A DNA stretch of 64,000 nt from assembly GCA_023078555.1 (NCBI GenBank), contig CM041199.1, positions 4,531,315 to 4,595,314 of the forward strand, written 5' to 3'. Position 1 is the first letter of the stretch. Each line of letters opens with the position of its first letter. The notes under the pieces were generated by a model. It was given only the letters and a program-made list of their open reading frames with translations. It was not told the origin of the DNA and did not search any database. Both the position numbers and the translations under genes were made by a program. The DNA is from Ulva prolifera. Taxonomy: Eukaryota; Chlorophyta; Ulvophyceae; Ulvales; Ulvaceae. Below are positions 27,266-61,745 of this stretch, in pieces.

Positions 27266-30200
27266 ATGCACGATTTTCTGGAGCAACACGCAACGGTAAG
27301 AATTTCTCGTTGGCCAGCATTTATCATTATTGGTAGTCCCACTGTTGTCATTTACACCTGGTGATTTCCTGTCTGTTCTGGTTTTCTTCGTCCTGAGCCA
27401 CTGCTGTAGACATGCCCACCACAACGGCAGCGGACGCAGCTGCTTTCAGTTGATCCATCGCTGCAACTTTACGTGTCAGGCATGTTGTTGGACGCATCAC
27501 CATGTTCTGCCCAACCCAAGTTTGTGCGTCTTGGAGTTTCGGCGCGACAGGGCTTCAAATGCCATCCCCAGAAATGCTGACGTCCGCACTGCGGCTGAGC
27601 CACTCCCTGCATTCTGCTGAATCGCGCTGTGACGGTCTTGAGATCGGAAGTAGGTGTGTAACGTTACAGTACGCGCGCTTGTCTCGGTCGGAGTCGGTTG
27701 TGTGGGCGTCTGCAACTACCCAGGAGCTGGCCTCCAGTCGCACGAGGATCTCGTGGCGTATCTCAGCTTGACAGCTTGAAGGCCGCTGAGGATCCGACAC
27801 GACTGCACTGTGTTCAATAAAAAAAATACACTGTCAACATCCAGAATTTGGTGCATGCAGGCGTCGCATCCTTGCATGCTGAACTCCTTCGATAGATTTT
27901 TAGAAAAAGTCTCCGGCAAGCGAGTGGTCGTATTCCTAGACTATGACGGGACGCTGACACCGATCGTGTCCAACCCGGACCACGCTTTCATGTCGCCTTC
28001 TATGCGAGGGATCGTGAAGGAGGTGGGCAGGCTGTTCCCCACTGCAATCATCTCTGGCCGCGGGCGATTGAAGGTCGAAGACTTCGTCCAACTGGACGAG
28101 CTATTTTACGCGGGCAGTCATGGTCTAGACATCAAGGGCCCGGTGGTGCGCGCCCAGCTCTTGTGGCGCACGCGTGAATGCCATGTTCACAGCGTGGTGT
28201 CGCCATCAGGCGCGCCTGAACCTGGTGCCCTGCTTGACCACGCAGGCGGCACGGCAGCGCTCTTGGTACACGTGTGCCTTGGTCACAGTGCCTCAGCATG
28301 GTCAGTGGTTGTGCAGGTTCAGTCCGTGACTGGAGAGGAGCGTGAGGTCCTTCCGCTCACGTTGGAAGGCGGGCTGCTGGCAATGATGGCCGAGGTAAAG
28401 GCAGAGGCTGAAGCTGCTGTCGCGTCGATTCCAGGCGCTACAGTTGAAGACAACAAGTACTCGGTGTCGGTGCATTTCCGTAACTGTCATCTGGACGACT
28501 GGCCGAAGGTGCGGGACTTCGAGCCTCGCAGCTGTGCGTCGGGCCGGCCCAGGGCCCTGTTTCTGCCTGAACATCACATGGTGTCTAGTTTGTGCGTCAG
28601 TGCGGTGCAAAATCGCGTCCAGCAGCAGTGTTGGGAGATGACGGAGCGGCTGCCTTCCTAGAGGTCTTGCGCTCTGCATCATTGCCAGTAAGCCCTCCTG
28701 CTTCGTCAGGAGCGCAGTCATCATTTGTCAGACACGAGGCGCAGGCCTACCTGCCACGGAGCGTCCATGTAGCAATCGAGATAGCGTGCCTCCAGTTGTC
28801 TTGAGTGCAATCTTGCTGGAGCATGCCTGTGTTGCTGAAGGTCGTGCAATTTCGAGCATGTGGCCCCTCTCTTGCTGCCATGCTACCCTCTTGACAACTC
28901 ATCACCTTGACGTACTCCGGCACACTGCACACTCCGTGGTGCACACCTGCATCCTCCTTCTCACTCCCCCAGCCCACTCAAGCACTGAGCACCACCGCAC
29001 CTCGTGTGCGAAGTCTGCATGGCGCCACCACGGCAGCGCCTCTGCTCTGCCAAGGACAACAGCCCAGATGTAGCCAGCCGCTTTTCCAGACAGCGTCTCA
29101 CGTGCGCCCGGCGCAGGTGTTCACCGCGGCAGACGAAATCGTGCAGCGGAGGGCCGCGGTGCACATGACGCGCGGCCGCAAGGTCCTCGAGATCCGGCCG
29201 CGCGTCAACTGGGACAAGGGCCGCGCGCTGCTGCACCTGCTGCGCGCGCTCGGCCTCGCCGACGCCCCGGACGTGCTGCCTCTGTACATCGGCGACGACC
29301 GCACCGACGAGGACGCGTTCCGCGTGCTGCGCGCCTCCGGCGTCGGCGTCCTCGTGTCGAGCATCTCGAAGGCCACGGCCGCGAGCTTCACGCTCAACAG
29401 CCCCGCTGAGGTGTGCCTCCTCCCGCCCTGGGCACCCCCCAGCCGCTCCCCTTCGCCTCTTTTTCTTGTCTTCGTCCCCTCTCCTCTCTCCGCTACCTGG
29501 TGGGGTCTCCGCAGGAGGATGGTGCCTGCGAGCGGCGGTCGGGCCCGGCGATGCCCGCGGTGATTCGGCTGCTGTGACTTCTGCCTGCTGTGTCCGGCCC
29601 CCTTGCCAGAGGCCATTTGGTACTTCCAGCATATCTGGCGGGACTGGCTTGTCAGGACCAGCAAGGCTTGGGGATGGGGGCATGAGCTTGTGTGGAGGCA
29701 GGACGCCCCGGGCCGATCGCTCCCAGTGTCCCTCATCATCGCATCTGTCTGGCTGGAGCTGGCAGGTCAGTGAGCTCGTGGTTAGTGAGTGCTAGTGGAT
29801 GGTGGTGCAGTGAGTAAAAGGATCAATTACTAAACCTCTGGGCAATGGGTTACTACATCACTGGCCCAATGAAGTTGGGACCACATGGCATGTGATGTCC
29901 CATGCTGTTTGATATACGTGGTTTAGTTTTGAAGGATCTTTCCTGTGCCAGTGGTCATCACTGCCTGGCACCCAGAGGCCACCAGTTGATGGTCACTGCA
30001 ATCACCACTTTGTATGTGTAGCTGTCTACAGGCCACCAGTAGATGGTCACTTCAATCATCACTTTTTGTATGTAGCTGTCTAGATTCTGTCAGATACCTT
30101 CACATGCATGGCTGTTGTGCAATCGGCCATGGTCTTGCACTGAGTTCCATACACGTATGGATGGTCTGGCATCGGCCAGGATCTGACAGTGCCACCAGCA

Positions 30201-38304: not shown

Positions 38305-41105
38305 TCACACACCACCTGGCGCTGGTGCTGGCGCGTGGAGCGGCCGGGCCGGCAGCGTGCCTGCAAAGTCAGCCACGCACAGCGTCTTGCGGAAAAAGTA
38401 GTACGGCACCACCCCCTCCTCATCACCGTCCCGCAGACCAGCTGTCCCCGTGCCCCCCGCGGCACCGCCGCCCACCCCCGGCTGCCCCCCCGCACGCACC
38501 GGCCAAGCAGCATCTGCAGCAGCACCTGCTGCGGCACCCCCAGCGCGCAGCGCGTCGGCGCCGCGGCTGCTGTGCCGCTGCAGGGAGACATGTTCCGGGC
38601 TAAGCGGCATGAGAGAAAGAGCCCCGTTCATGTGGACCACATGGTCAGCGTCCGGCATCGCCCCGGCGACCTGCGCTTCGGGAAGCCCACCCTGTGTTTG
38701 TGGGCATGGGTGCCGTTCAGCCACCCCCGGCGCGGGGGCCGGTGGCCCTGCGGAAGGCCCCCACAGGTACATCGGAGAATCGGCACCCTGACTTCCCGAT
38801 ATCAGGCAGGATCCCCTGGCTCCCGCAAGTTCCAACGCGCCCCCCCACACGACAGCACGGCACATCCCTTCGTCTGCATCAGCGCCACCACAGGGTTCTC
38901 CTGGCAGCTTCACGCCCTCAGGCTCTCGCTGGTCTTCTCGTATGCAGCACGCAGCGCACACGCCGCCCGAGTCCCGGCCGTAGCATTCTGGTTGATCCGC
39001 ATCAAGTGCTACGCCGCACATGCTGTGCCGCCCAGGCGGTGGACCTGGGCGACATTCGGCAGAGAGGGCGTCGATGGGTTCAGGACGGGGGACCGCTGGG
39101 TGATCAGGGTTCGGTTGCGGCCATGGCAGCGGCCCGCCGTCTCCCTCGGCCATCGGAACATCAACGCATTCGACGTGAAGCGCGGCCCCTGGTCCCACGG
39201 CTGCGATGTCGGTGTGATGACAGTCGGTGCCAGGTGGCGGCGCGAGCCGTGGCGCCGCACTCGGCGGCCCCCTGACGCCACTCCCGCCAGCGCCAGTGCA
39301 AGCCGAGCTTGCCGCGTGCGCAGCATGCGCAGCGTCAGTGGGCGTGGCAGCATCCACGGCGGCCCCAGCGGGCGCCGCCGCGGCTCCTTCCGGCAGGCCC
39401 CCGGCGGAGGCGGCGGAAGACGTGCGGGTGCAGAGGCCCAGCATGCCGTCGGGCAGCACAGCGACCACCGGCGCGGCGCGGAACGGCAACGCATCGAACC
39501 ATGCGCGCGCAGCATGCAGTTCCGCCGCACATTGCGGCGCCCCAGCCACTGCCGGTGCCCACAACCCCGATGCATACGCACCGTGCGCACTTCCATTGCC
39601 ACTCCCGCCCCCGCCAGATGCCGGGAGGGGCCTGCGATCGGCGCATACTTGTGAGGCCAAGCTGGGACTGCTCAACTCCCCCGACAGCCAGGCGGAGAAA
39701 GGGGAGACAAGCCTGGGGGCGCTGCACTCCCCGCCCCGTCCCAGATGAAGGGCATTGCCTGAGGCATAGATCTGTCGTCGGTGATAGGGTTCGGGAATGA
39801 AGGAGGTGGAGGGGTCGGGGTGGCTGGGGGCGGAAGTCGCGGGGCCAGAGGGTGCGCGGGCGTGCGCGCACGGCGGCACCGCGGTGCCGCCTCCTGCCGT
39901 AGCCATGGGGGAGCATCCGTCCTCATCACCGGAGGGCGTCGCGGGGGGCACCGAAACATCGCCTGCGGCGGTGTCGGCATGCATCGCGGCATCTGTGCTG
40001 TGCTGCGCTGGGCTGCGCGGATCCACCGCGGGACCCTGGAGCTGACGCGGTGACACAGAAGCAGAGGCGGGCCGAGTGGGGCTGCGAAGGGGGGGGTTGT
40101 GGTGGGGTGGCGTGTTTGGCGGGGGTGCCATGGCGCGTCTTGTGGCTGCTGTGTTGTCGGTGGATGGGGGCAGACCAGGAGGCTGCGTGGGGGGGTGAGG
40201 AGGGTTCTGAGCCGGGGTGGACTGTGCTGAGGCAGCGGCTTGGGGTTCCGGTTCGGTTGTTGGAGGTGGGAGGGGGTATGCCAGTTTGTTGTCGAGGTCA
40301 ACAAACACAATGAATGCTGACCATGGCTCGATGGAGGTGTCAGTGGGCTGGAACCTGGCACCTGCATCAACTCTGGAGATCATTCTGCTGCCCCTCCTGC
40401 CCAGGTGGACGAAACCAGTTGATGTGGCGCTGATGCGGCGGGTCTGGTCACTGCAGAGAGTCGTGCATGGGTCATAGCTGCTGCTGAGCCTCATGAGTGG
40501 CAGCAGTGTCGGCCTCGACGAAGGTCGGTGTGCATGTCTCAAGACGCCGTCATGAGATTCAATGTGAGCTTTGGGTAGGCGTGCACGGAGGCGCTGTTCG
40601 ACACAGGCATGTTGCGTAGACCTGGCTTACCACACCGCCAGTCTCCACGCTCAGACAAGGGTTGTTTTTTCTTATATACGCTAGCTTGTCCGGACAGGAG
40701 TATTCTCTAGCGAAGTCCAGGATGTCGGTAGCGCACCGTTTCGACGCCGTGAGGAGGTGCCCCTGCAAAGTTGCCATCCGCATACTGCGACCACGACGAG
40801 CATAGACATCGCGAAGCCCGCAAGCGCAAGAACCGGACCTGCACACGCTCGCAGCTCGCTTTAACTCACACACTAATGCCAAGGAATGAATCTTTAACTC
40901 GAAGTCCGGCCGCATTGAGTGCGCTGCGTTCGGGTGTGTCGGTGTTCGTGGCGCAAGGCTGGGCGGTCGCAGGTCACAAGTCAAACACGCGGCTGCGGAT
41001 GCAGATAGCCATACCAACCCATCCCTGATCAGAAAGGAATCCTCTGGCTCCCTCATCTTCGGCAGCCTCGTCACCGCCGTGCTGGGATGGTCCTGCGAAA
41101 GACAT
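38305..41105 (-). CDS. Single-pass membrane protein, tandem family member 1 (unrecognised family)
   Basis: Exons 41105-41015, 40838-40737 and 40361-38305 give 749 residues. Exon 1 starts MSFAGPSQHGGDEAAEDEG (acidic). Exon 2 encodes one transmembrane helix, about residues 33-52 (VLALAGFAMSMLVVVAVCGW), followed by basic SSRRRNG. Exon 3 is mostly Pro/Ala/Ser low complexity around three islands: FIVFVDLDNKLAYP near its start, ALPFRAAPVVAVLPDGMLGL in the middle and YYFFRKTLCVADF near the end. The same islands, in the same order, occur in the genes at 42784-44905 and 47497-50500, and both introns are phase 1 in all three. Topology should be a short acidic N-tail, membrane helix, then the large C-part. 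Family and function are unknown. A further 3' exon is possible. Confidence 0.72.
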
Positions 41106-42783
41106 TGGCTGTGTAGTGCTGATGAGCGCAGAGCTCGCGGGATGCAGCTGTGACGACGGTTTATGTATACAGTGACTCAGCCTCGGCAAGATGCGATCAG
41201 GAAGTGTGATGCAGTGTGGTTGCACGGCCGCTGGGTAGCGCTAGCCTTATCCCGGCCGTAGTCGCCGTGGACCTGCAGAGCACAACAGAAATCCAAAGAG
41301 CGCAATCGGATTTGGGGTATTGGAGGATGTGAAGCAGCCTTATCTCGAGCTTGTCGACCTAGAAGCACCCGCAAGGCTGGACTCGGGGCAGGAGTGTCGG
41401 CCTTGATGATGTGATCATGAACACCGGTTTGACGATGCACAAGACGCCGTACCGTCAGTCCAAGTAACACCTGCCACTAGTGATCTTCAATGTTGAGGTC
41501 TGTAGATGCGCCGCGGCGCTGTATGTGCGGTGTCGCCATGGCTGCGTTCCTGCATGCAGTGTAGCGTCGAGACTGGGCAAGACCGGACCGTGATAACGCG
41601 ACAGGACGTGGTGCTGGTGATGCATACGCGCGAGCAGAATACAGCACCCCTCCTCAGCGAGGCACGTCTCTGGCGTCCGCCTGACTTTGACCCGCCATCG
41701 GCGTTGTGATTCAACGTTACATGAGGCAGGTGCAGATGCTTGAAAACATCATATGATGCATGTGCGTACGCGTGCATGTGTTAGGCGAACGGCGCCGGGA
41801 GGACTGATCACGGGAGGGCGGCCGGCGTTGAGATGTGTACGCTATCGCCGCAGCCGGACGGCTTGGGTTCGCTTACATCGCCTGGCACTTGCGGCTGATG
41901 CTCTGCCCTGAAAATTTTCCGAGCTGTTAACGTTGTAATTTGTTTACTTTGTGACCTGGCAAAGCTAGCTAGGCGCAATGTCGAGGCGTCCCTGTGGCCA
42001 CGGGCGGCGAGGTGCATCATAAGAAGCGTTTTCAGATCTAGATGTGCCTTGCCATGTATCACGCAAACGCTGGTACATTTGCATAGCCCCGCGGACAACT
42101 TTCCCGGCCTCTGGAAAGTACGTGCGGGCGCACCAGCCTGAAAATGGAAGTGCGAAATTTGACCACAGGGGCGGGTGTGGGGATATGGGCCGGGATTAGT
42201 GGTAGCCACTTATGTCACGGTGCATTCATGGGCCTACCCCGTGCACGCAACACTTGTTGCACATTGGACCAGTCAGTTTGAATTTTCGACGGTCCTTCTG
42301 CTATCTGGATGTGGCCATAGCGACCTCGGCAATGCGGGCCTCATCAAGTGCCACACGCCGTCCATATGGCCACAGGCTGGAGCAGCAAGGGAGCTGATGC
42401 GTGGCGGCGATGGCAGGGCGCATGAAGTGTGATACTCAGCCGGCGACATGCACTATGACTGCATCCATGATACATGTGAAATAAATTGGAATTGGCAAGA
42501 AGCACGCATATTGCAGCTGGCATTCACCAGGCCACAGCCCACACACCGCGGCGGCTCACGCAGCCGGCGGCCAGGTCCATCAGCGCAAACCAGTGGTTTG
42601 AATATTGAAACCACAATAACAGCACAAATTCGTTTTGAAGTCGCAATCCGCAGGCAATGCTCTAGCAGGCTCAGCGGTAGGAGCACGCGCCGCCGACGAT
42701 CCCCCGACGCCGCTGCGGAGGCGGCACCCGGACAGATGCCGCTGCGATTGCCGCCGCGACTACTGCCACAGAGCGCAAAAGGA
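41106..42783. other. 1.7 kb between tandem paralogs
   Basis: A minus-strand frame at 42209-41808 (133 codons) lacks an ATG near its start and has no splice partner. Nothing else is convincing. The promoter of paralog 1 should lie just above 41105. Confidence 0.35.
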
Positions 42784-44905
42784 TCACTTCCACATCCCTT
42801 GCCAACAAAAATGTTCATCAGGGGTACCACTTCTACGCGCGCCCGCGGCCGCGCCGCCTTCTGTCAGTCTGCTGTAGAGGCAGCGCCCGCGCCACACACC
42901 ACGGCGGGCACCGGCTGCATCCATCACCTGCTACACAACTTGAACTGACAGGTGGGTAAAAGAAATATGCCGCAATCCGTTGGGGTCCAAACCAGACCCG
43001 GCTCGCCCCCACGCGGCACGGAACCACCCCCACGCTGCAACGCTGCCCAGCATTCACCGTAGCACGTGCTGAAAATCACTCACCTCCAGATCAATCCTAT
43101 AGCACAAGCACGGCTGCGCGTCGGCGTCCGCGTCGGTGAACCCAGGCACCTGTACCCCTTCGTCTCCCGGCCCTTGCGCGGCCCCGGACTCATGCGGTCC
43201 TGCGCCCGCGGCGACCGCATCAGCATCAGTCTCGCGGGCGCCCGGCTCCGCTGGACCTGCAGAAACCTGATCACCCTCGCTGCGCGTGGCATCGCCGCCG
43301 GGACCCTGTACAGCCCCGGCTCCCGCCGCTCTGCCGCCGCTGCCAGGCGTGCCTTGCTGCGAACGTGATATCGGTTCGACAGCACGATGCTGGCGATCAT
43401 CGCCGGGATCCGCTACATCGGAAGACGAACGGTCAACTTCGCACAGGCACAGCGCGGCGTCCGGCTGGACCACGATCGTCGGCATGGCCATCGCGCCGGC
43501 GGTGAGCGCCTCGAACCGGCGGCGCGCACGCGCCAGCTCAGACTCTGCCGTTGGGTGTGAGGCCTCGGCCGCGTCTGACTCCTCCTCCGCTGCTTCCGTC
43601 GTGGCCGCAGCCCCGCACGCGCAGAGCCCGTACCGCCGCGCGCGCGCTAGTTTCAGCGCCCGCGCCGGGCCGGACGGCCCCCGTTGCCGGCCGCGCCGCG
43701 CCGCGGCCTCGGCCGCGCCAGCGGCCTCCTCGCGCCTCCACGCCTCCTGCTGCGCCGCTCGTTCGTCTTCCTCGGAGATCCGCACCGCGTCAGAGGGGGG
43801 CGGGGGTAAAGTGGCGCCAGGGGCGCCCGTGGACGTGGACGCCGCGGCGTCCGGGCCGGCGCCGGGCGCGGGCGCCGCGGCCGCTTCGGCGGGCTCGCCA
43901 GTGAGGCTGCAGTATGCGCGGATGAGAGCGGCGCGGATGTAGGAGGGGCCGTCGGGGAAGGCAAGCTGCTTGCGGAGGTCGACATCGACGATGGCCTGGT
44001 TGTCCGGGGTGCTGTGACGCGGGCTGCTCGTATCGGCGGCCTCTGCATGTTGGCTTCGGTGAAGCATAGCGCGCGCACTACTGATGCCGCCTTTAATAGC
44101 TGTTGTTTGTTTTTTTTTTCAGTTTTCGTCAAGCGGTGGATGAAATGACGAGGGGGCTTGAAGAGCGACCGTGTGCGCTGCTGGTGGGGCCTCGTATCAT
44201 GATATCGCTGGTCTGATTATCTGCCGAGACTGACAAAGCATTTGAATTCAGAGCCACCAGACCGCTGCGATGTAATTGCGCACGCATGGAGGCCACATTT
44301 TGAGACCGCGACAGCTAGCAAGCTCGGACCAGAGCAGTCACAGGAGTCCGTCCTCTGCTCCAGTTGGACTTGGGATGTGGAAGCCACTGTGATGTGGCCA
44401 TGCTGTTGCTACAGTTATACATCAGCTCGCAAGGAGCTGGCATGGCAGAGCGAGCTAGGTATGGAAGGAGACTGCTCCGACAGCTGCGGTGGTGGCTCCA
44501 TGGGATTGTGTGCACTTGATGTGGGCAGTCCGAGACGTGCCGCGGGGCGCACCGTTGTCAGCAGGTTGTTGATGGCGCCTGCGCCTGTGGCCACAGCAAC
44601 CGAAGGTCCTGTGCACGCATAGCAGAAGCACCGCCACCCAGAACGCCAAGAAGATTATGACGATGAAGGTGCCATCTGCATGCAGCTAGCTCCGATGAGA
44701 CACAGAATTTTAATTTTCACTGGCATGCACTATCTTGCTCGAAAGCATATGACGTTGGAAGCGTTGTGCTCGGGCTTGAATGCGGCCTGGCTACGGCGAG
44801 ACCGTCCGTATAGTCAAGCATGTCCGCAGAATTGCCAAAATCACAATCAATGATGACATCACTGTTACGTAGATTCGCCCAGTTGCGTGGGACTTCCCGA
44901 GACAT
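42784..44905 (-). CDS. Single-pass membrane protein, tandem family member 2
   Basis: Exons 44905-44803, 44675-44553, 44042-43058 and 42868-42784 give 431 residues. Exon 1 starts MSREVPRNWANLRNS and is acidic. Exon 2 gives the membrane helix (FIVIIFLAFWVAVLLLCV, about residues 37-55) followed by basic CCGHRRRRHQQ. Exon 3 holds the family islands AIVDVDLRKQLAFP, MPTIVVQPDAALCLCEVD and CLCYRIDLEVSDFQHVL, separated by Ala/Gly/Glu-rich stretches; one of these (RISEEDERAAQQEAWRREEA) is helical. The first two introns are phase 1, like its paralogs. The last intron (phase 2, donor GTGAAT) has no match in them; without it the protein would stop four bases later. An alternative start is the ATG at 44067, which would drop the membrane helix. 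Confidence 0.72.
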
Positions 44906-47496
44906 CGGTCAACGTAGTGCCAGTGGTGGTCGCGCACGCACTTGCACTCCTGCACAGTTTACATGGGTGCGAGTGTCACTTGAGACTCGCAACACAACAT
45001 TAAGGTTACACATGTGAGCTCTTGGACGATTTCATACGCCAGGATTGCAGTTCCGGGTCCTTAAGCTGTTCAAACGCCTGCCTGTTCCGCAGCACTGAAC
45101 TGTTGTTGGGATCGAGTTTCCGTTCGGACGACCGCTTAGAGGGATACGCTCAGCCATGTGGCTATGTTACATGGTCCTTTGTGTAAGCCCGGCGTGTTGC
45201 TTCCTAGCGGGACGTTGGTGAGACGAACGAGGCGACAGACTATCCTTTACGCAGACAGGGATAACCAGGATCGCGCGATACCGGTGACAGCGCCTGAGAA
45301 GACAGCAACGCCATGCAAAGAGAGGACATCTGATGGAAGCATGTGGCTGTTGTCTTCCAACATCATGCGGCCAGATGACGTGGAATCGGTCGATGGATCC
45401 AGGGCATCCAGGGCTCTGCAGCGACTAGTTCGCGCAGTTCTGAGCGAATTCGTGTCTAGCCCAGTGCGGCGGCCGTGCATGATAACATAAATCGCACAAT
45501 TATAAGCATCTGTTGCAGTGTGGCTCCTGCGGGCCGGAAGGCGAGAGTTGCAGTCTCAAAGCTTGGTTCCGCATTCTTCCGGAGTTTTGCGGAGTTCATT
45601 GCGAGAGGCAGTGCCTCCACACGTCGACTTGAAGGCGCACCGAGCCACTCCATGGGCTGTTGTGTCCTTGAATCATTTTGAGGCGTCGTTGAGCAGCAGA
45701 TGGGATCGTTCGGGCTTCTCGCGCAGATGCAGCGCCCTGCCGGATCGAGGCCTGCAGCTGGAGCTGCAGCAGCTTCATCCGGGCTCGTCGCATTATGCAC
45801 CAGCATGCGAATAGAGAAACTTGACATGATGACCACTAAGGATTGACCTGATTTCACTGAAGTGTCGAGAGTGTGATTTTCTGCGTCTGTCTGGAAAAGC
45901 TAGGTGCCAGCAAGGAGGCACACATGGCAGCGCTGCCTAGTCGACGATATCGATGATATGCACACTGCGGTAAAGATGTACGGCCCAACACGGAATAAGT
46001 TTGACTGTAACGTGTACTTTCCATACAGTGTATGAGCATCTGGCTGTGTGCTTTTCAGTGGACAAGCGCCGCAACCTCAACGCGTCAAAAGTTGAGGTGA
46101 GCGAATCTTTGCAATACCAGGTGTGATCATCACGCACGCGGTGGCGCGTGGCGTAGGTGTGCCACTGACGGACTGACGGTATCTTGCGATGGTGGTCAAG
46201 GCCACCATATCCCGTACGCGCACGACGCATCAGCATTCTAAAGCTCCAGTCACAAGGCTTCTGGTAGGTGGTGCTATGGGTCAACAGGTTGACACCGTAG
46301 CGCTCTGAGGCGCCACACACGTCCGAAGGCGCTCAGACGGTACCAGCGCATGCATGCGCTCGGCAGACAAATTTGGCACCACGTCACGTGGTGACGTGAG
46401 CGTGTTCACATCATGGCGTGCATAAATGCCCGCGCGCCATGATCACAGCTGCAGCCAGATGGCCGTCATCGGCCATTCCTGCTGGTTGTTAACGTGCGAT
46501 TCGAATGTGATGAAATCGCTGCATCGTTGGGCATCGAGCTGCTGCCAGGCTGTGGACTGTCGCAGCCACGGTCAGCAACAGTGGAGGCCAGCCCATTCCA
46601 TGCAAGGCAGAGCTCAAGAACACTTGCATCCAGGTGTGACAGGATGGCTGCACGCTCTGCCTACTGTACATAAAGTAGATACAGTATGCATGCAGCCGTC
46701 CCTGGATCGACTTGCTCGCCACCGATGATGCACATGGTCAAGACAGCTCGTGTCCGGGCAGCCCACGCTCAGGCAAGGCTTCAGCTGCTGCCGAGCCGAA
46801 GCGGATACTATCAATACCAGCACATTTCTGGCGCATGCGGTCGCGAGCCCCGCTGCAGCGTGGTGCCCGGCTCACCACACGAAAACGCCCATATAATGCG
46901 ACATCTTCTTGGTAAGTAGATGAGAGTACGCGAGCAGCGGAGGTGCGACTTATTTACACAAAAGGCCGCTGAATTCAACAGTATACCTGTATGTAGTATG
47001 GTGTATGCATGGGCCATGCGTACACCCACTCCCGCCCGGCTGAGAGCCACCCCAGGAGGTGTCCGCAGCCTCCTCCACCCGCCGGCCAACATCTCAGCAG
47101 CCGGCGGAGCGCCATGGCTAGGAGCGCACGACCCAAACGCTCATAGTTTATTGGCCATAATCAAAATCTGATAGCAAACGCAGCGCGGCCAAGCGCGGCC
47201 AAGCGCAACACATCCCCTGCATGCATATGTGTGTGTGCCGTTTAGATCTCGAGCAGTACATACGCCGAGTCGCCATCCGACACGCCCCTTCGAAATGCCT
47301 CTCATGCATTCGAAGCCCTCTCCAAGAATTTTGCCGAAACAACAGATGCTCTGACGGTGTTTCAGTCCACCGCCTGTACAACCTACCCCTATGGGTTCCT
47401 TCCATCCCCCTCCCTGCCCTCCCTATGCCAGCGATTCGGGGGGGGGGGGGGGGGGGGGGGGGGGGATGGGGGGTGTATGCGCAAACATGCTCACCC
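44906..47496. other. 2.6 kb between paralogs 2 and 3, with weak open frames
   Basis: The best candidate is a plus-strand frame at 45158-45490 (text such as SSNIMRPDDVESVDGSRAS), ending in a stop at 45490. The opposite strand at 45857-45456 is equally open, so strand is undecided. A minus-strand frame at 46320-45937 (SFRMLMRRARTGYGGLDHH) also looks partly protein-like. None has a supported start or introns. A run of 28 G lies at 47438-47465. Confidence 0.25.
47438..47465 (+). repeat. Run of 28 consecutive G
   Basis: A pure G homopolymer sits 32 bases past the stop codon of the minus-strand paralog 3, so its transcript would carry 28 C in the 3' untranslated region. The exact length may be a sequencing artefact. 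Confidence 0.8.
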
Positions 47497-50400
47497 TCAC
47501 ACAGCATCTACCGAAACGGCGGCGCCCGGCGACCCCCCCGCGGGCCCCCACGCCGGCGGCAGCCCCTCTGACCCTCTTGACGCGTTCTCCCCCCCGTCAA
47601 GCTGCCGGGACCCGCCCCGGCCCGCTATCGCCAGCCACACGCCCTCCAGCACCCTGCTGCTCCCCCTCCCCTTCCGGCTGTTGTCCCCATCGCCGCCGTC
47701 ACAGGCCCCCTCGCCGAGAGAGGCAGCCCCATCTGCCTTGCTGTTTAGCAGCCCCTTCAACGACCGCTCCGCTGCGGCCTCTCGGTCCGCGGCGCCGCCG
47801 CTGGATCCCCACGCAGCCTTCCGGTGCGCACCGCCGAGGCTCCCCGGCCCCGGGGCCAGCCAGTCTGAAAGCCCCTGCAGCAGTCCGCCGGTCCAGGACC
47901 GCGGCGGTGCCGGCTCTGGGTGTGTCACGTGCGCGAAATCGCTCTGCAGCACCTCCGCTTTGAAGAAGTATAGGACACTGGGGGTGTCAGGGTTTGCGTC
48001 AGGGTCCTCCCCCTGGCGTGCGGCCGCGGCCGCGTCGATTGTGGCCCCAGCAGTGGCAGCGCCCGGTTCCCCCGCTGCCTGTGCTGCATGGTTGCTGCTG
48101 CTGCTTGCGCCTGCGGCGTGGGCCGCCCCCGGCTGCCCCCCCGACTCCAACAGCGGCGCCGACCCCTCGGAACCGAACATGGACAAGTTTACTGGAGCTC
48201 TGCCGTCCGCCGGGCCCTCGGAATCTGTATGCATCGGTATATCCCTGCCAGCGGCCAGGGCAGATGCAGTCACAGGGTGAAGTGCTGCCGCAGGGCGCGG
48301 GCTGTCCAGCGGCTCAGATTCGGAGTCCATGCGGCACAAGCACAGCTGCGCGTCGGGCTGGACTGCGACCAGCGGCAGCGCCGTCGCCGGGATGTTGTCA
48401 AACCACTGCTTGCGATCCCGCTGCGTGTGCTCTGGGACGGTGTCCGGCGCCATGGCACTGGCCTCGCCGCCCAGCGCCACCTCCACGCTGCCCGAGCTGG
48501 CAGCCGCCGCCCCGTCGGCGGCCGCCGCCGCCTCCTGCGCTGGCGTGGCCGCCTGCGCGTCGGTAGCCGCGCCGTCGCCGCTATGGCGCAGCCGCTGCGC
48601 CGTCCGGAGCGGCAGCTCACACACCGCGCCCGCTGCGCGGCGCAGCGCGGCAGCGCCGTGCTGCGCGTCGCGCGCAGGGGCGGCGCCGAAGGCGCCCCCG
48701 CTGGGCTGCGCGGCTTCGCCGCTGTCCACGGGACCGGCCGTGGGCGCGGTGCCACCCTGCGGCGGCGGCGGCTCAGCAGCCGGGCCAAGCGGGTCATCAG
48801 GGCTGTCTGGTAGCTCACTGATGGGGAAGGCTTGTTTGCCTTTGAGGTCGACGTAGACGATGAGCGTGCCATCTGCGTCCTCATCACTGGCCGCTCCGCC
48901 GAACACTCCACGGCGACCTGCACATTCCCCCACAGCCTCACGCCAGCAATCCTGGTCCGCAATATGAATATGGACATGCCTACGTACACACACATACATG
49001 CACCCCGCTCTCTGAGCATTTGCGGTGCGTGAGGAGATGGTTTCCTGCTGGCTGTACGCCAGCGCTGTTTGCTGCAACGGCTTTGACGATCATGCGACAA
49101 TGGGCCGCGTGTTTGATGAGTAGCTGCTTCCTTGTCAAGCTGGATGCCTGTGTTTTTTCTAATTGTGAAGACGCTTTTGTAGTTTCTCATGTGCAGTGCA
49201 CTTGCCCGTAGTGGGCGTGCACTGAACTGGTGAATGAGTAGATTTGCGTGTGAATTCCTAGCAATGGCTCGATGCCAGGCCTCTGTCCTGTGTAACCACA
49301 TACATGCAGCCTGACTGAGTGGATTTGCGGATGGATTCCTAGGAACGGCCCGATCCCCGGCCTCTGTCCTTTGTAACTACATGCAGCCTGGGAGCGCAGC
49401 GCGGCTGGCCGCTGTCTGGGTGTGTGCGTTGCATGGCCTCCGGGTGCCTGAGCCGCTGAGGGAAGTCAAACTGTCACGCGGTGTCAGGCTGATGCGCGTT
49501 AGATGCGGCAGCAGAGCCAACGAGTTGGTGTACTATGATCTTGCAGGCCACGGCCGCGTGTGGTGTGTGCGGGCGAGTGTGCCACGTGTGCGTCGCCACA
49601 TGCCCAGCACGTCAACCAGCGGGGCCCCGTTCAATCGCTGTACTGGTGCCAACAACTGTACACTGCACATCTCCGCGTTTTGCTACCATGCATGTGCCTG
49701 GCCAGCCTGCCATGTGTTTGATCTAAGCCTTGTGCTGCAGTATCTGGAATATCGGCTTTGCTTGGAAGCTGTTGAACAGCAGGCCAGCCTGCGCTGCGCT
49801 GACTGGCGAATGGCTGTGAATCTGGCAGGGACAGGGGGAGGGCCAGAGGGGGAGTCCGTACCTGCTCGGGGCCTGCGGAAGGGTTGCTGCCTGAACTGGT
49901 GGACGCAGCAGATGATGATAATGATGATGACTGCCGCGAATCCTCCAACCAGCGTCAAGGCATCTGCACGGGCACCCCTTGTCATGCGCTACGTGGCCAG
50001 GAGTTGTTCAATGCAATCATCGAGTTTGCATGCATGAATCCTTGCGGCTCGGATGTGGTCTGAGCTGTATGCTGAATGTGCTGCCAGCACCGCGCATGCA
50101 CACGCACTGGCGCTGTTGTACGTTATGGTGGTTCTGCTCGCTGTGGCGCGCAGCAGGTTGATCCGAATTTCAAGATGAGGTTGGGCCAAGATCACGGCTG
50201 CGAGGTTGCGTGGCTGGTGTTGTTCCAGATACGCCACCCCGCCCACGCACGTAAACAGTTCGCAACGCAGGCCACTGGAACCTGGCGAGCACAGTGTGGA
50301 CGACGATGCGCACCGAACCAGGATGGAGGCTGTCGTGTAGCATTCAAGAAGGTTACCCGTTCGCAGCATCCCTGGGGATCGGAGTCGACATTGCACCGAT

Positions 50401-50500
50401 AGCACAGCGATCCACGCTCGAACACTTCGGATGTTCTGAGGCCAGAACCAGGAGAAACCGCCTCGGGATTGTCATCAAATGTCGAATTTTGAAAGCTCAT
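47497..50500 (-). CDS. Single-pass membrane protein, tandem family member 3
   Basis: Exons 50500-50449 (least certain), 49963-49862 and 48917-47497 give 524 residues. Exon 1 starts MSFQNSTFDDNPEAVSP. Exon 2 gives the membrane helix (LTLVGGFAAVIIIIIICCV, about residues 20-38) then basic RQQPFRRPRAG; it is 102 bases, exactly the length in paralog 1. Exon 3 carries the islands LIVYVDLKGKQAFPI, WFDNIPATALPLVAVQPDA followed by QLCLCRMD, and VLYFFKAEVLQSDFAHV. A C-tail of about 130 Gly/Ser/Ala-rich residues is not shared. Both introns are phase 1, as in the other two. The Ile run is coded by an ATC/ATT trinucleotide repeat. The donor of exon 1 (GTTCTG) is weak, so the first 17 residues may be wrong. 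Confidence 0.68.
49231..49308 (+). repeat. Dispersed ~70-base repeat, copy 3
   Basis: It has GAATTCCTAGCAATGG, then CTCGATGCCAGGCCTCTGTC, then TGTAACCACATAC. It lies in the second intron of paralog 3, directly before copy 4. Confidence 0.65.
49314..49386 (+). repeat. Dispersed ~70-base repeat, copy 4
   Basis: It has GGATTCCTAGGAACGG, then CCCGATCCCCGGCCTCTGTC, then TTTGTAACTACATGCAG. It is in tandem with copy 3, five bases apart, in the same orientation. Confidence 0.65.
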
Positions 50501-51595: not shown

Positions 51596-54201
51596 CTCAA
51601 TGACTTTCCCTTGGTGATCACCAGCTCCATTGATGCTGTTCAGCAGCGTGCTGCAGAGGTGCTCTATATATGCTGTTGGCAGCCTTGTTTGTCTGAAGCA
51701 TATTCTTCAGACAAATGACAGTGACACATTGCCACTGCTGTGACACATGCATGCCCTGAGCACTGTCAACTGCGTGCTGGCCTGCAACCTGACACCACTG
51801 CTGTACTAATTAATAATAAGACGTTCACTTCCAGCCTGGGTGCAGACATCATTTGCAGAGGGCCTCTGCCACATGCACCACCACCTGCAACCAGCAATGT
51901 GCATGCATATGCAATGCAGAAATCTGTTCATGTGACAGTTCCAACATATCCCTAGAGAGATATATCTGCACTGCATGTGCCTTGCAGCTGCATGCGTGTG
52001 TCAGCACCCACTGTTGCATCCACTGTCGCTGCTGATGACAGCGGCATTGCTGTGGCATTGTGTGCTTGTGTGTTGCCCGGCTTGCGGTGCTATAGCCGAC
52101 TCCCCGACTTGTCCTTGTAGCACATGCAGCAGGTCCTTCTTGATGTGTGGAGTGTGCCTCTTGAGGCCAAATTTGGCCTCTGCGTTTCGCACACCTGGCA
52201 ACCTAGAGGCAAAAAGTCATGATCACAAAACCATTTCATGTGAGCGCAGCCGCACGGCCAGCTCGCATATGCCAGTCCAATCATGTGCCGTAAAGGTCGC
52301 TGGCGCCAGGTCGTCGTGGCCTGCATCCATGCAGCGTGGCCTGCCCTGCAGCAGATCATGGTAAGCGCCATGCACATAGCACTGCTCATAGTAAAGTGAA
52401 GTAAAGTAAATTTAAATTTACCGAGCCGTATCCTATTGGACATTGACAACTCCGAGTTAAGGGGACCACATATGCCGAAAGGGTAAACCACCTGGAAACC
52501 CCCCTCAGACGACCGTACGCAACTCACAGGGCCTCCTCCTGTGCTAAGCGAGGTGGTCACGTACGGCCGTTTCGATTCCCCAAAGCGCACGCAGAATCGC
52601 ACCCACGACCTCCTGAAACGCCGGGGGCCCCTCCGGGGGCCCCTCCAGGCGAGGCATCGCCACGGCAGCGTATCTCGCGATCGGCGATTGTTCGCCACGC
52701 CGCTTGCGCCATATACATAGCCTCCCGCAAGAACGCGGTCAGCATATGCCGGCCTTGAGTTCGATCGTGGTTGTGAGCGTCTGCTTGTGAACCGGGTTGG
52801 GGTCGTGGCTGTGGTTCCTACGGCATAGCTACAGCGCGCGTGGCTCTGGTCCCACCTCGGTAGGGTCGATCATATAGGGTCTGTCATATAGCTACAGCAT
52901 GCGTGGCTCTTTGTATGTAGCTGCAGCGGACTGCAGAGAAGTGGCTGGGGGTGCTAGCCTGTTGCAAGGCACCAGCCGCATGCATCCACGGTGCGCCCGC
53001 ACCAACCGCGGTGACCGTAGCTAGCTACAGCTGCTTCGGTGATCCTAGCTAGCTATATAGGTCAGCATGCTGCAGCTCTACCTGCACACAGCTACAGATC
53101 CAGAAGCGCTTGCCTCTATATATCTGTACTGTAGTAGAGTCTAGATCTGCGTGCGGAAGACGCCTCCTAAGCACCGGCATGCATTTAGATGCCGGGATGT
53201 TGCTCACTCGAACGGTGCGTTAGACATACCCACTTGTCGCCACCAACTGCCCTGAGCTTTTGTTGTAGGAGGTCGTATATGCATGGAATTAGCTGACATG
53301 TCGAGGTATTCGATGTGTACACATCCACGAACGCGTGCCACCTGTTCACGTTTTGAGGCGAGCTTGAGTAGGACTGCCGGCGATCCCTGGAGTGCAGGTG
53401 GCCTACACAAAGCCGCTACATCTTCAATGCTTCAGCAGAAGATATGCTTTCACAGGACGAGATCGGAGTGAAGTGTTGCTGATAAAGTGCGTGCGACAGC
53501 GCTCGTCGGATTCTGATCAGCTTGCCGCGTCTATCAGCCTCAGCTGCGAAAGCAGTTTCCAATCGCAGTGTAATATTCCGTACAGCGACGAGTCCATTCA
53601 AGGCTCCAGTATTGCATTGTCCATCCGACTATCAAGCGATGGAGAACCACGTGCCGGTGCGAACACCTCTCGATGCCCGCTTGAGTTTGCTACGTTCATA
53701 AAAGCCGTACACTGCCTTGGGGACTGTGTGCTTTGCATTCTGTGATGCTCGGTACAGCCGCTCCCGCGGGCTCAGAGGGAAGAAACTCGATGAGTGCTCA
53801 AACGTGAAATACGCTGCGCGCTGACGCAACAAACCGATAATAGTCGCACATTGATGATTATCGTGTTTTATGGGGCCAATACGTTGCTTCGATGAGCTAC
53901 TATCGATGCGCTGCCAAAGTGAATCACGCAAGCGAAGCGATGAGTGCTTGCCGGTTCTGGGTTGCCCTCTTTCACACGCACATGTCTTGAACACAGCAGA
54001 TGTACACAGTGACGACATATATGGCCTTTCTTCTGCATCCGCGGTCGTTCATGTATTCCCCATGGCCAACCTGGCAGTGAAGCATGTTTTGCCGCAGCAA
54101 GGTACAGCAGCGCTACCTGACATGTGGTACATACAACACTCAACACATTGTCCCATATCTGCTGCGTGGCTACATTGCGTGTGAAGACACGCGTTAGTTG
54201 T
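51596..54201. other. 2.6 kb mostly non-coding, with a SINE copy
   Basis: It contains the second SINE-like copy (52388-52626) and, at 52820-53100, several TAGCTACAG-type words in loose repetition. A plus-strand frame at 53392-53745 and one at 53870-54184 have some protein-like text (SDQLAASISLSCESSFQ) but no clear start or splice partners. They could be upstream exons of the gene at 54202. Confidence 0.3.
52388..52626 (-). mobile_element. SINE-like retroelement, copy 2 (5'-truncated)
   Basis: The body and AT-rich tail match the copy at 2357-2630 almost throughout, in the same orientation. The B box is damaged (GGGTGCGATTC instead of GGGTTCGATTC) and the tRNA-like head upstream of it is replaced by unrelated GC-rich sequence. 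Truncation at the 5' end is typical of retroposed copies. Confidence 0.75.
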
Positions 54202-59120: not shown

Positions 59121-61174
59121 TTAGCATTGCTGCACACTGATCATCTCCGTGCAGGCCTCTGATGCCTTGTTGATGTTCTCCTCACGCTTACCGTTGTTCG
59201 CCAGCTCATAGTCATCTGGGAGGTCCATGTTCAGCGGGTCGGCCTTGTCGCGCAGGTCTTTCATGAACTTGTTCACCTCTGCGTTGACCGGGTTGTTCTT
59301 GCCAGCCTTCTTCCCGACGATGGCATCGTCATCTCGCAGCATATCCCTCACAGAGCGCGCAAACTTCTTCTCGTGAGAGGTGCCGGCGTCAACGTTCCAG
59401 AAGCCATCAAAGCCCCCAGCCCATTCGCCGATGGTGCAGGTACCATCGGCGGACACGGTGATCTCTGCGGAGCGCCATGCGGGGTTGCCGAACTTCGTCT
59501 GCTCACCATCAACGCACACGATGTACTTACCATCGGCAGTCTTTGCAGCAGCGGGGGGTGGTCCGGAAGGCGCAGGGGTCGGCTCGGGCGCAGGGGTCGG
59601 CTCGGGCGCAGGGGTCGGCTCGGGCTCAGGGGCCGGCTCGGGCTCAGGGGTCGGCTCGGGCTCAGGGGTCGGCTCGGGCGCAGGGGTCGGCTCGGGCGCA
59701 GGGATCGGCTCAGGCTCAGGGGTCGGCTCGAGCGCAGGGGTCGGCTCGGGCTCGAGCATTGGCTCGGGCTCAGGGGTGGGTTCAAGCATGGGCTCCGGCG
59801 CAGGCGTCGGCTCGGGCATCGGCTCCGGCGCAGGTGTCGGCTCGGGCATCGGCTCCGGCTCAGGCATTGGCCCGGACATCGGCTCCGGCGCAGGCATCGG
59901 CTGCGGCTCCGGCTCCGGCATTGGCTTCGGCTCAGGCATGGGCTCCGGCTCCGGCATTGGCTCGGGCATCGGCCCCGGCTCAGGCATCGGCTCCGGCTCC
60001 GGCAATGGCTCGGGCATCGGCTCCGGCGCAGGCATCGCCTCAGACATCGGCCCTGGCATTGGCTCGGGCATCGGCTCCGGCGCAGGCGTCGGCTCGGGCA
60101 TCGGCTCCGGCGCAGGTGTCGGCTCGGGCATCGGCTCCGGCGCAGGTGTCGGCTCGGGCATCGGCTCCGGCTCAGGCATTGGCTCAGGCATCGGCTCCGG
60201 CATCGGCTCCGGCATCGGCTCCGGCATTGGCTCGGGCATCGGCTCCGGCTCAGGCAGTGGCTGAGGCATCGGCTCCGGCATCGGCTCCGGCTCAGGGGTC
60301 GGCTCCGGCTCCGGCAATGGCTCGGGCATCGGCTCCGGCGCAGGCGTCGGCTCGGGCATCGACTCCGGCGCAGGCATTGGTTCAGGCATCGGCTCCGGCA
60401 TCGGCTCCGGCATCGGCTCCGGCTCCGGCATTGGCTCGGGCATCGGCTCCGGCATCGGCTCCGGCATCGGCTCCGGCATCGGCTCCGGCTCAGGGGTCGG
60501 CTCCGGCTCAGGGGTGGGCTCTGGCTCGGGCATTGGCTCGGGCGTCGCTTCCTCACCACTGTCGCCGTAGGATCCAGGCATATCCTCAGCATCCAGCACT
60601 GCAGCACGAGCATGGGTGAAACCGTGCTGCAGCAGCGCCACAGTGCTGACCACACTAAATGTGACATTTTAAATGTTGGATCAGGCACATCACACCACGG
60701 CAGGAGACACCATGGCCATGTCCGCGCAGCACAGCACATTGCCGACATCTGCCCGCAGCCAATGCCAGTCATGCCAGCACGAAGCAAACGGTTGCACAGA
60801 AGCTGCCGGCAGTGATAGGTGGATTCTACTGGTTTCCAGAAGCTTGGCATAACGGCAGGCTGATTGTCCCATGGAAAAATAAAATAAAAAATCTGGCCAC
60901 ATCTATAGAGGGATGCAGCAGGACCAGGCAGCGGGGGCGCACAGGCACGGGCGTGGGCAGCCGTGGCAGAGCCGGAGATGAGGCGGCGGAAAGGATAGGC
61001 CGCGAACTCACGCACGCGGTCGACTGTGCTCATGGCCTCCACCACATCTGTGCCGAACACGTCTGCAGCTTCTCCAGAGTCCTGCATCCTCCAGGTGGTC
61101 ACCCCCGGCCGAAGGCTGTGTACCGGCCAGGGGGCTAGCGCCGCCATCAGGCATAGGAGACCTGTCGTCCTCAT
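59121..61174 (-). CDS. Secreted Pro-Glu-Met repeat protein with compact C-terminal domain
   Basis: Exons 61174-61012 and 60598-59121 (phase 1, donor GTGAGT) give 546 residues. Residues 1-20 ([20 protein letters not shown]) are a classic signal peptide. After an acidic linker ([15 protein letters not shown]), residues about 72-400 are almost only Pro, Glu, Met, Thr and Ala in PEPM and PEPTPA units, an extended polyproline-like rod. The last 140 residues form a different, folded-looking domain: KYIVCVDG, then [17 protein letters not shown], then a charged helical part ending [10 protein letters not shown]. Its four Cys could make two disulfides. Such layouts occur in cell-wall or extracellular-matrix proteins of algae; the domain itself I do not recognise. 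Confidence 0.75.
59573..60545 (-). repeat. Coding minisatellite of the Pro-Glu-Met repeat
   Basis: Nearly 1 kb of hexamer-based repetition (GGCTCG, GGCATC, GGCTCC, GGCGCA on the plus strand) with higher-order units of 42 bases coding [10 protein letters not shown]-like text. The opposite strand reads as GSGIGSG or ASARASA, which explains several long false frames. Confidence 0.9.
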
Positions 61175-61745
61175 CCTTGCAACGGTGGCGTGTGGTCGCT
61201 TTGCGTCAGCTCTGCATGCATGTGGATGGTTACGTTATGATTACGCTCACGCATGTCACGCTGATGCACGCTCTGTTGCGCGGTGCGATGACATTCTGGC
61301 GCTGGCGATAGCACCGTGCATTTACAGGTCGACTACATGCTTACGTATACACTAGCAGGCGACTTAAGAATTCTGCAGACAGGCGTGCGCTGGACCGCAG
61401 TCGACATATGTCTGATGCTGCAGAAAAGGGCCGATCAGTCGCGTGGCGGGTCTCGACGTCGCGAGGGTTGCCACGAATTTAAGTGTGCAGCAGCAAAGGC
61501 ACCTGACACGTGTCGGCCGTGCGCGAAGGCCAACACACGAGCAGAACGACATAGGAGTAGGAGGAGGTATGGGCAGCTCATGCTATCATATGAGGACTGT
61601 ACGCAACACGCATCTGCCCGTGCAGCCGTTGTGTGACGTCATAACATGTACAACAACAGAGACAGCCAAAACAACGGCACTGCAGAGACGCGTCCACAGT
61701 GCTGCGCGTAAAGCAACTGCACACCCACCGCAAGAGTGGGCATCG

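Follow-up and report, generated by a model that had tools for sequence, protein, structure and literature searches.

Among described membrane proteins, those nearest in plan to the genes considered here are the outside-N/inside-C (type III, or reverse signal-anchor) proteins with disordered cytosolic tails. Three neighbouring genes on the minus strand of a 64,000-nucleotide stretch of the Ulva prolifera genome (GenBank assembly GCA_023078555.1, contig CM041199.1, positions 4,531,315 to 4,595,314; hereafter the window) resemble this class in their N-terminal helix, in the acidic-then-basic flanks of that helix and in a low-complexity tail, while differing from it in that their topology is predicted and that no sequence relation to its named members was found. 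The genes, which we call g3 (50500-47497), g2 (45827-43054) and g1 (41105-38305), occupy 38305-50500 of the window, bounded by the g1 stop codon and the g3 ATG. They have a common layout, consisting of a short exon 1, an exon 2 that encodes a membrane helix and a single long exon 3 that carries three short islands of similarity, and their predicted spliced products contain no internal stop and measure 749 (g1), 432 (g2) and 569 (g3) amino acids. Our best reading is that the trio is a real, unnamed family, and not a mechanistically extraordinary one. The three-exon architecture probably specifies single-pass membrane proteins, each with an acidic N-terminal side, a basic patch and a long tail in which the islands lie. 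The host is an ecologically weighty seaweed, known for its green tides.

The original prediction placed the three islands in a fixed order in all three genes and proposed common descent, and both claims stand up to comparison of the predicted proteins. BLASTP between the long open reading frames (ORFs) gives best high-scoring segment pairs with expectation values (E) of 3e-7 for g2/g3, 7e-6 for g1/g3 and 1e-3 for g1/g2, all over island 2. When each island was scored, in the six possible directions, against the target ORF and 1000 shuffled versions of it, island 1 lay above every shuffle in all six and island 2 reached P <= 0.004 in all six, while island 3 reached P <= 0.001 for g1 to g3, g3 to g1 and g3 to g2. 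Island 3 is not significant alone between g1 and g2 (P = 0.14 for g1 to g2 and 0.27 for g2 to g1), and the g2 copy, compared with g3, matches island 2 first and not island 3. Island residues are kept where synonymous codons differ, as in island 1 of g1 and g2 (ATT/ATC, GTG/GTC, GTT/GTC and GCA/GCC). The sequence between the islands is Ala/Pro/Gly-rich and looks unconserved by alignment, forming inserts of 100 to 331 residues that differ widely among the members.

Genome-wide searches (88,887,114 bases in 44 contigs, E <= 10) confine island 2 to this cluster. A 42-residue query with g3 island 2 finds three places, its own locus, that of g2 at E 0.0018 and that of g1 at E 0.0020; island 2 of g2 and of g1 finds two each, its own locus and g3. 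Paralogues are thus recovered at E of about 0.001-0.002, with g1 and g2 not retrieving each other, and the whole long ORFs retrieved no paralogue from the genome. Because the search scores the best candidates alone, it has limited sensitivity, and the genome may hold a fourth, very diverged member. One further locus that matched g2 (L010, E 0.017) was rejected as a relative, since its matching ORF contains, by eye, none of the islands.

The exon layout points the same way. Helix exons of 102, 123 and 102 nucleotides in g1, g2 and g3, each between phase-1 introns, had been proposed as a shared feature, and this layout is upheld at the level of predicted junctions, the spliced models themselves being open. 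All six introns of the cluster are phase 1 and 176 to 965 nucleotides long, and every one ends in TGCAG, a pentamer that 6% of the AG dinucleotides in the window complete. Donors read GTGCGC in four introns, GTACGG in one and GTATGG in one. Three control introns from the same genome, one in a plastocyanin gene and two in RbcS, likewise all end in TGCAG, their donors being GTAAGT, GTACGC and what appears to be GTGCGC. The control plastocyanin gene has two exons identical at 48 of 48 and 50 of 50 residues to PDB 7pcy, with 1iuz next, which we take to be the plastocyanins of Enteromorpha (now Ulva) prolifera and Ulva pertusa, respectively; the nearest PDB chains of one RbcS exon are 1ir2, 7jfo, 9hvm and 1gk8, of which 1ir2, 7jfo and 1gk8 are presumably from Chlamydomonas. 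The plastocyanin identity, 98 of 98 residues in all, makes an Ulva origin of the genome almost certain, U. prolifera or a near relative with an identical plastocyanin being the likeliest source. Boundaries of exons 2 and 3 were taken from the lengths and phases of the original prediction and were fixed ahead of the comparison with control introns; the exon 1 donors of g2 and g3 were picked with GTGCGC in mind and are no independent evidence. With exon layout and intron phases shared at these predicted junctions, g1, g2 and g3 are confirmed, as far as sequence comparison goes, as one tandem family of long-diverged paralogues (Table 1).

Table 1. Predicted exons and conserved islands of the three genes (window coordinates).
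Gene	Feature	Position	Strand	Splice signals or tests
g1	Exon 1, 30 codons + 1 nucleotide, acidic: MSFAGPSQHGGDEAAEDEGARGFLSDQGWV	41015..41105	-	donor GTATGG, phase 1
g1	Exon 2, predicted membrane helix, 102 nucleotides, then basic patch SSRRRN	40737..40838	-	acceptor TGCAG, donor GTGCGC
g1	Exon 3, 684 codons + stop, low complexity and three islands	38305..40361	-	
g1	Island 1 (IVFVDLDNKLAYP)	40261..40332	-	shuffle test
g1	Island 2 (AWFDALPFRAAPVVAVLPDGMLGLC)	39415..39531	-	BLASTP, shuffle test, genome search
g1	Island 3 (YYFFRKTLCVADFAGTL)	38350..38421	-	shuffle test
g2	Exon 1, 62 codons + 1 nucleotide, four Cys (CICARSPNDPICC), sequons N12 and N51	45641..45827	-	donor GTGCGC
g2	Exon 2, predicted membrane helix, 123 nucleotides, then basic patch GCCGHRRRRH	44553..44675	-	acceptor TGCAG, donor GTGCGC
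g2	Exon 3, 328 codons + stop	43054..44042	-	
g2	Island 1 (IVDVDLRKQLAFP) and adjoining PSYIRAALIRAYCSL stretch	43894..44010	-	shuffle test
g2	Island 2 (AMPTIVVQPDAALCLC)	43423..43542	-	BLASTP, shuffle test, genome search
g2	Island 3 (CLCYRIDLEVSDFQHV), right at the C terminus; weakest island	43057..43122	-	shuffle test
g3	Exon 1, 62 codons + 1 nucleotide, four Cys (CYRCNVDSDPQGCC), sequons N5 and N53	50314..50500	-	donor GTGCGC
g3	Exon 2, predicted membrane helix, 102 nucleotides, then basic patch RQQPFRRPRA	49862..49963	-	acceptor TGCAG, donor GTACGG
g3	Exon 3, 472 codons + stop	47497..48917	-	
g3	Island 1 (IVYVDLKGKQAFP)	48805..48882	-	shuffle test, AlphaFold2 model
g3	Island 2 (KQWFDNIPATALPLVAVQPDAQLCLC)	48316..48429	-	BLASTP, shuffle test, genome search
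g3	Island 3 (LYFFKAEVLQSDFAHV)	47914..47988	-	shuffle test

A different origin for these ORFs has to be weighed, in which all three are chance products of GC-rich sequence, or the genes lie on the opposite strand, and no family exists. Long ORFs do occur in several frames across the high-GC stretches, and a number of results count against the frames proposed here. Codon usage, calibrated on 526 control-gene codons, does not single out the proposed frame: g1 scores -0.016 in it and 0.051 in another, and the antisense scores of g2 and g3 (0.171 and 0.176) exceed those of the proposed frames (0.018 and 0.040). Differences between island codons fall nearly evenly on the three positions (58, 52 and 60 over 139 codon comparisons), and similarity of the membrane exons beyond composition is found for g1/g3 (P 0.003), with g2/g3 (0.09) and g1/g2 (0.59) not significant. 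Plus-strand ORFs over island 2 of g2 and g3 (43271-43939 and 48281-48853) are also alike (E 0.009), a likeness to be expected if the sense frame is conserved. Summed BLOSUM62 scores over the blocks favour the proposed frame (351, next 245), but the blocks had themselves been selected in it. The case for the minus strand therefore rests on protein similarity, splice signals and exon layout. The ordered islands, the shared exon layout and splice consensus, and the genome-wide specificity make chance or antisense ORFs very improbable.

The exon that opens with MS(S)F, closes with W(V/L/F)G and has a phase-1 donor is likely the first exon of all three genes. For g2 and g3 this model has a fairly good chance of being right: the two exons are equal in length (62 codons plus one base), both end W(L/F)-G directly before GTGCGC, and they have in common GRCIC/GSLCYRC, DPxxCC, a sequon in the same region and QPxxW(L/F)G. 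Their alignment exceeds shuffles (local P = 0.0006; global 0 of 5000), for a pair preselected by eye and with P uncorrected, and among 2160 candidate pairs of g2/g3 first exons the best alignments use ORFs starting at 45827/45806 with 50509/50500, the top-ranked pairs extending slightly beyond the chosen donors. The g1 candidate, short and without Cys, was chosen for an MSF start and W-V-G end like those of g2 and g3; it is the least certain exon, alignment score did not recover it, and its model could as easily be wrong as right. Several searches speak against these assignments: in a tblastn search of the window, g2 exon 1 matches its g3 counterpart no better than E 0.89, genome searches with g2 or g3 exon 1 do not retrieve each other, and g1 exon 1 aligns significantly with neither and has a different donor (GTATGG).

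Other starts were considered and set aside. An ATG beside the helix was dropped when candidate first exons turned up that agree in start, end and phase, and a g2 exon 1 at 44905 (MSREVPRN..., donor GTCTCG) gave way to the one at 45827, with its g3-like donor GTGCGC. Exon 1 of g3 matches itself alone in the genome, and that of g2 matches itself and two weak places, L025 (E 0.004) and L026 (E 0.09). We read both as probably due to chance: the first lies opposite an apparent coding exon (judged by eye, with no family search), and the second contains an internal TGA and was not reproduced at full length by tblastn.

Two sequence features accompany g3. A piece of a dispersed repeat lies in its intron 2 at about 48940-49089, and 46 of the 47 genome matches of the g3 ORF, spread over many contigs, correspond to residues 1-50 of its frame; these copies were rejected as family members, as that sequence falls in intron 2 and belongs to the dispersed repeat. 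Some 30 nucleotides past the g3 stop, at about 47438-47465, the plus strand has a long stretch of G, which reads as C in the direction of g3.

The membrane anchor followed by a basic patch, as first proposed, is also recovered. A Kyte-Doolittle scan (19-residue mean, threshold 2.0) finds one segment above the threshold per gene model, always in exon 2, the other minus-strand matches lying outside the modelled exons. The helix starts near residue 32 in g1 and near residue 64 in g2 and g3. Net charge on its N-terminal side is -5 (g1), -3 (g2) and -4 (g3), and over the 25 residues that follow it +3, +1 and +3, respectively; the segment before it carries four Cys and two sequons in both g2 and g3. 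The acidic N-terminal side and the basic patch after the helix, together with the Cys and sequons before it in g2 and g3, suggest a single-pass anchor with its N-terminal side outside or lumenal and its tail cytosolic.

The same ectodomain, helix and tail would also fit type I receptor-like proteins, in which a signal peptide, cleaved off, would be encoded by a putative further 5′ exon. Such an exon is possible for g2 and g3, and it runs counter to the start codons proposed above: a TGCAG ends one base ahead of the g3 ATG, and at a loose threshold nine ATGs upstream of g2 (the best-looking at 46596) and five upstream of g3 (51852) open a hydrophobic stretch resembling a signal peptide. If one of these were used, the proteins would therefore be type I, and phase-1 introns around an exon rich in Cys and sequons would suit an extracellular module. 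However, g1 has no upstream ATG that reaches this threshold, MS(S)F begins exon 1 in all three models, and no phase-matching junction was found for the upstream candidates, although no systematic search was made. We consider this alternative rather unlikely and favour the predicted signal-anchor topology.

The family had been called unrecognised, and this holds for the libraries searched: Pfam, NCBIfam, PHROGs and the PDB offer nothing significant. In Pfam, neither the three long ORFs (E <= 10) nor island 2 of any member has a match. Scanning the helix region of g2 and g3 gives weak likenesses far under the curated cut-offs, namely the g3 helix with TMIE (PF16038; E 0.04, 14.2 bits against 27) and the g2 helix and basic patch with DUF4834 (PF16118; E 0.29, 12.5 bits against 27.8). 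NCBIfam, queried with all three tails and with the first exons of g2 and g3, returns nothing at E <= 1, and PHROGs nothing significant, its two unnamed families (E 0.17 and 0.34) each arising from one of the three members. Nothing among the PDB matches is convincing: depolymerases, matched by profile (E 0.027-0.04), owe their scores to Ala-rich sequence and a short 'QPD', and a desaturase (E 2.2), 'VVVQPDA' of BRCA1 (E 0.99) and a DMSP lyase (E 2.8) are read as chance. The pyrenoid Rubisco-binding motif was considered for the WFD of island 2 but does not seem to fit it. Pattern searches for island 2 gave 104 stretches in viral contigs and 42 in prokaryote genomes, none confirmed in either, and the g3 tail has no match in phage records at E <= 0.1. 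No paper on such a family came up in literature searches, for which a nameless family offers no keyword. The family is possibly lineage-restricted, and other Ulva species may be expected to carry homologues.

What the islands are is a question of fold or motif. The proposal that they form one folded core is not supported so far. AlphaFold2 models of the g2 and g3 tails are of low confidence, with a mean predicted local distance difference test (pLDDT) score of 42.8 for g2 (three alignment rows; three helices and no strand) and 41.0 for g3 (five rows). In the g3 model, and weakly there alone, island 1 is a short beta-hairpin (residues 20-31, block pLDDT about 50-67), and island 2 coincides with a helix and two short bridges; the structural features of both models are hints only. 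The three islands may instead act one by one, as separate linear motifs for binding within a disordered scaffold, an option that we rate a little short of even. Inserts that vary from 100 to 331 residues between members and the lack of a joint fold in the models favour separate motifs, while the fixed order and the hydrophobic, strand-like sequence in all three members do not, and with alignments of three and five rows a missed fold is to be expected.

That the islands are some known small domain in strongly diverged form, with a PH-like or EVH1-like fold as the lead, is improbable. The order of hairpin, hairpin, and strand plus helix may resemble that fold, but the joined islands of g1, g2 and g3 match no Pfam family and their profile no PDB chain at E <= 10. 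A new domain of the Ulva lineage, with a cytosolic beta-rich core in three segments split by disordered inserts of 100 to 331 residues, beneath a glycosylated and disulphide-bonded head, is conceivable but doubtful on present evidence. If the islands do fold together, they would clearly exemplify a core preserved despite large disordered insertions, of a sort that sequence-profile methods miss.

Elsewhere in the window, a trehalose-phosphatase gene (PF02358) with at least two exons lies at 27780-29560 (+), and two copies of a repeat in the same orientation lie at about 1771-2607 and 52093-52869 (-), 90% identical over 70 translated residues. An ORF at 59124-61234 (-) has a signal-peptide-like start and no Pfam match, with PEPTPEPEP repeats in an overlapping frame. 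Rfam and tRNA scans of the window are empty.

As a whole, the best explanation, to which we give about an even chance, is that these tandem paralogues are single-pass membrane-tethered adaptors with disordered tails; the adaptor role taken singly is a tentative assignment. The N-terminal side would face the lumen or the outside, where in g2 and g3 its Cys would form disulphides and its sequons would be glycosylated. The tail would be cytosolic and held to the membrane by the basic patch and juxtamembrane Cys, and the protein would act as a membrane-tethered adaptor. The islands would then be the selected parts that bind a partner, whether as a joint small beta-rich module or as separate motifs, and the inserts of 100 to 331 residues would be flexible spacers. 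The neighbourhood lends this role no help, as no functional association emerges and two of the 10 neighbouring ORFs match Pfam, both to trehalose-phosphatase. Gene models are now given for a family to which the searched libraries assign neither name nor domain; speculatively, such surface or endomembrane proteins could be involved in cell-wall, adhesion or microbe interactions of the seaweed. The likeness to transmembrane adaptors, such as those of the LAT type, lies in Cys placed where the helix ends on the inner side, a low-complexity tail and a few short conserved segments. The two differ in that the islands of the Ulva trio are strand-like hydrophobic segments, whereas the conserved segments of LAT-type adaptors are tyrosine-phosphorylation motifs; no homology was found between them, and LAT-type adaptors belong to another lineage.

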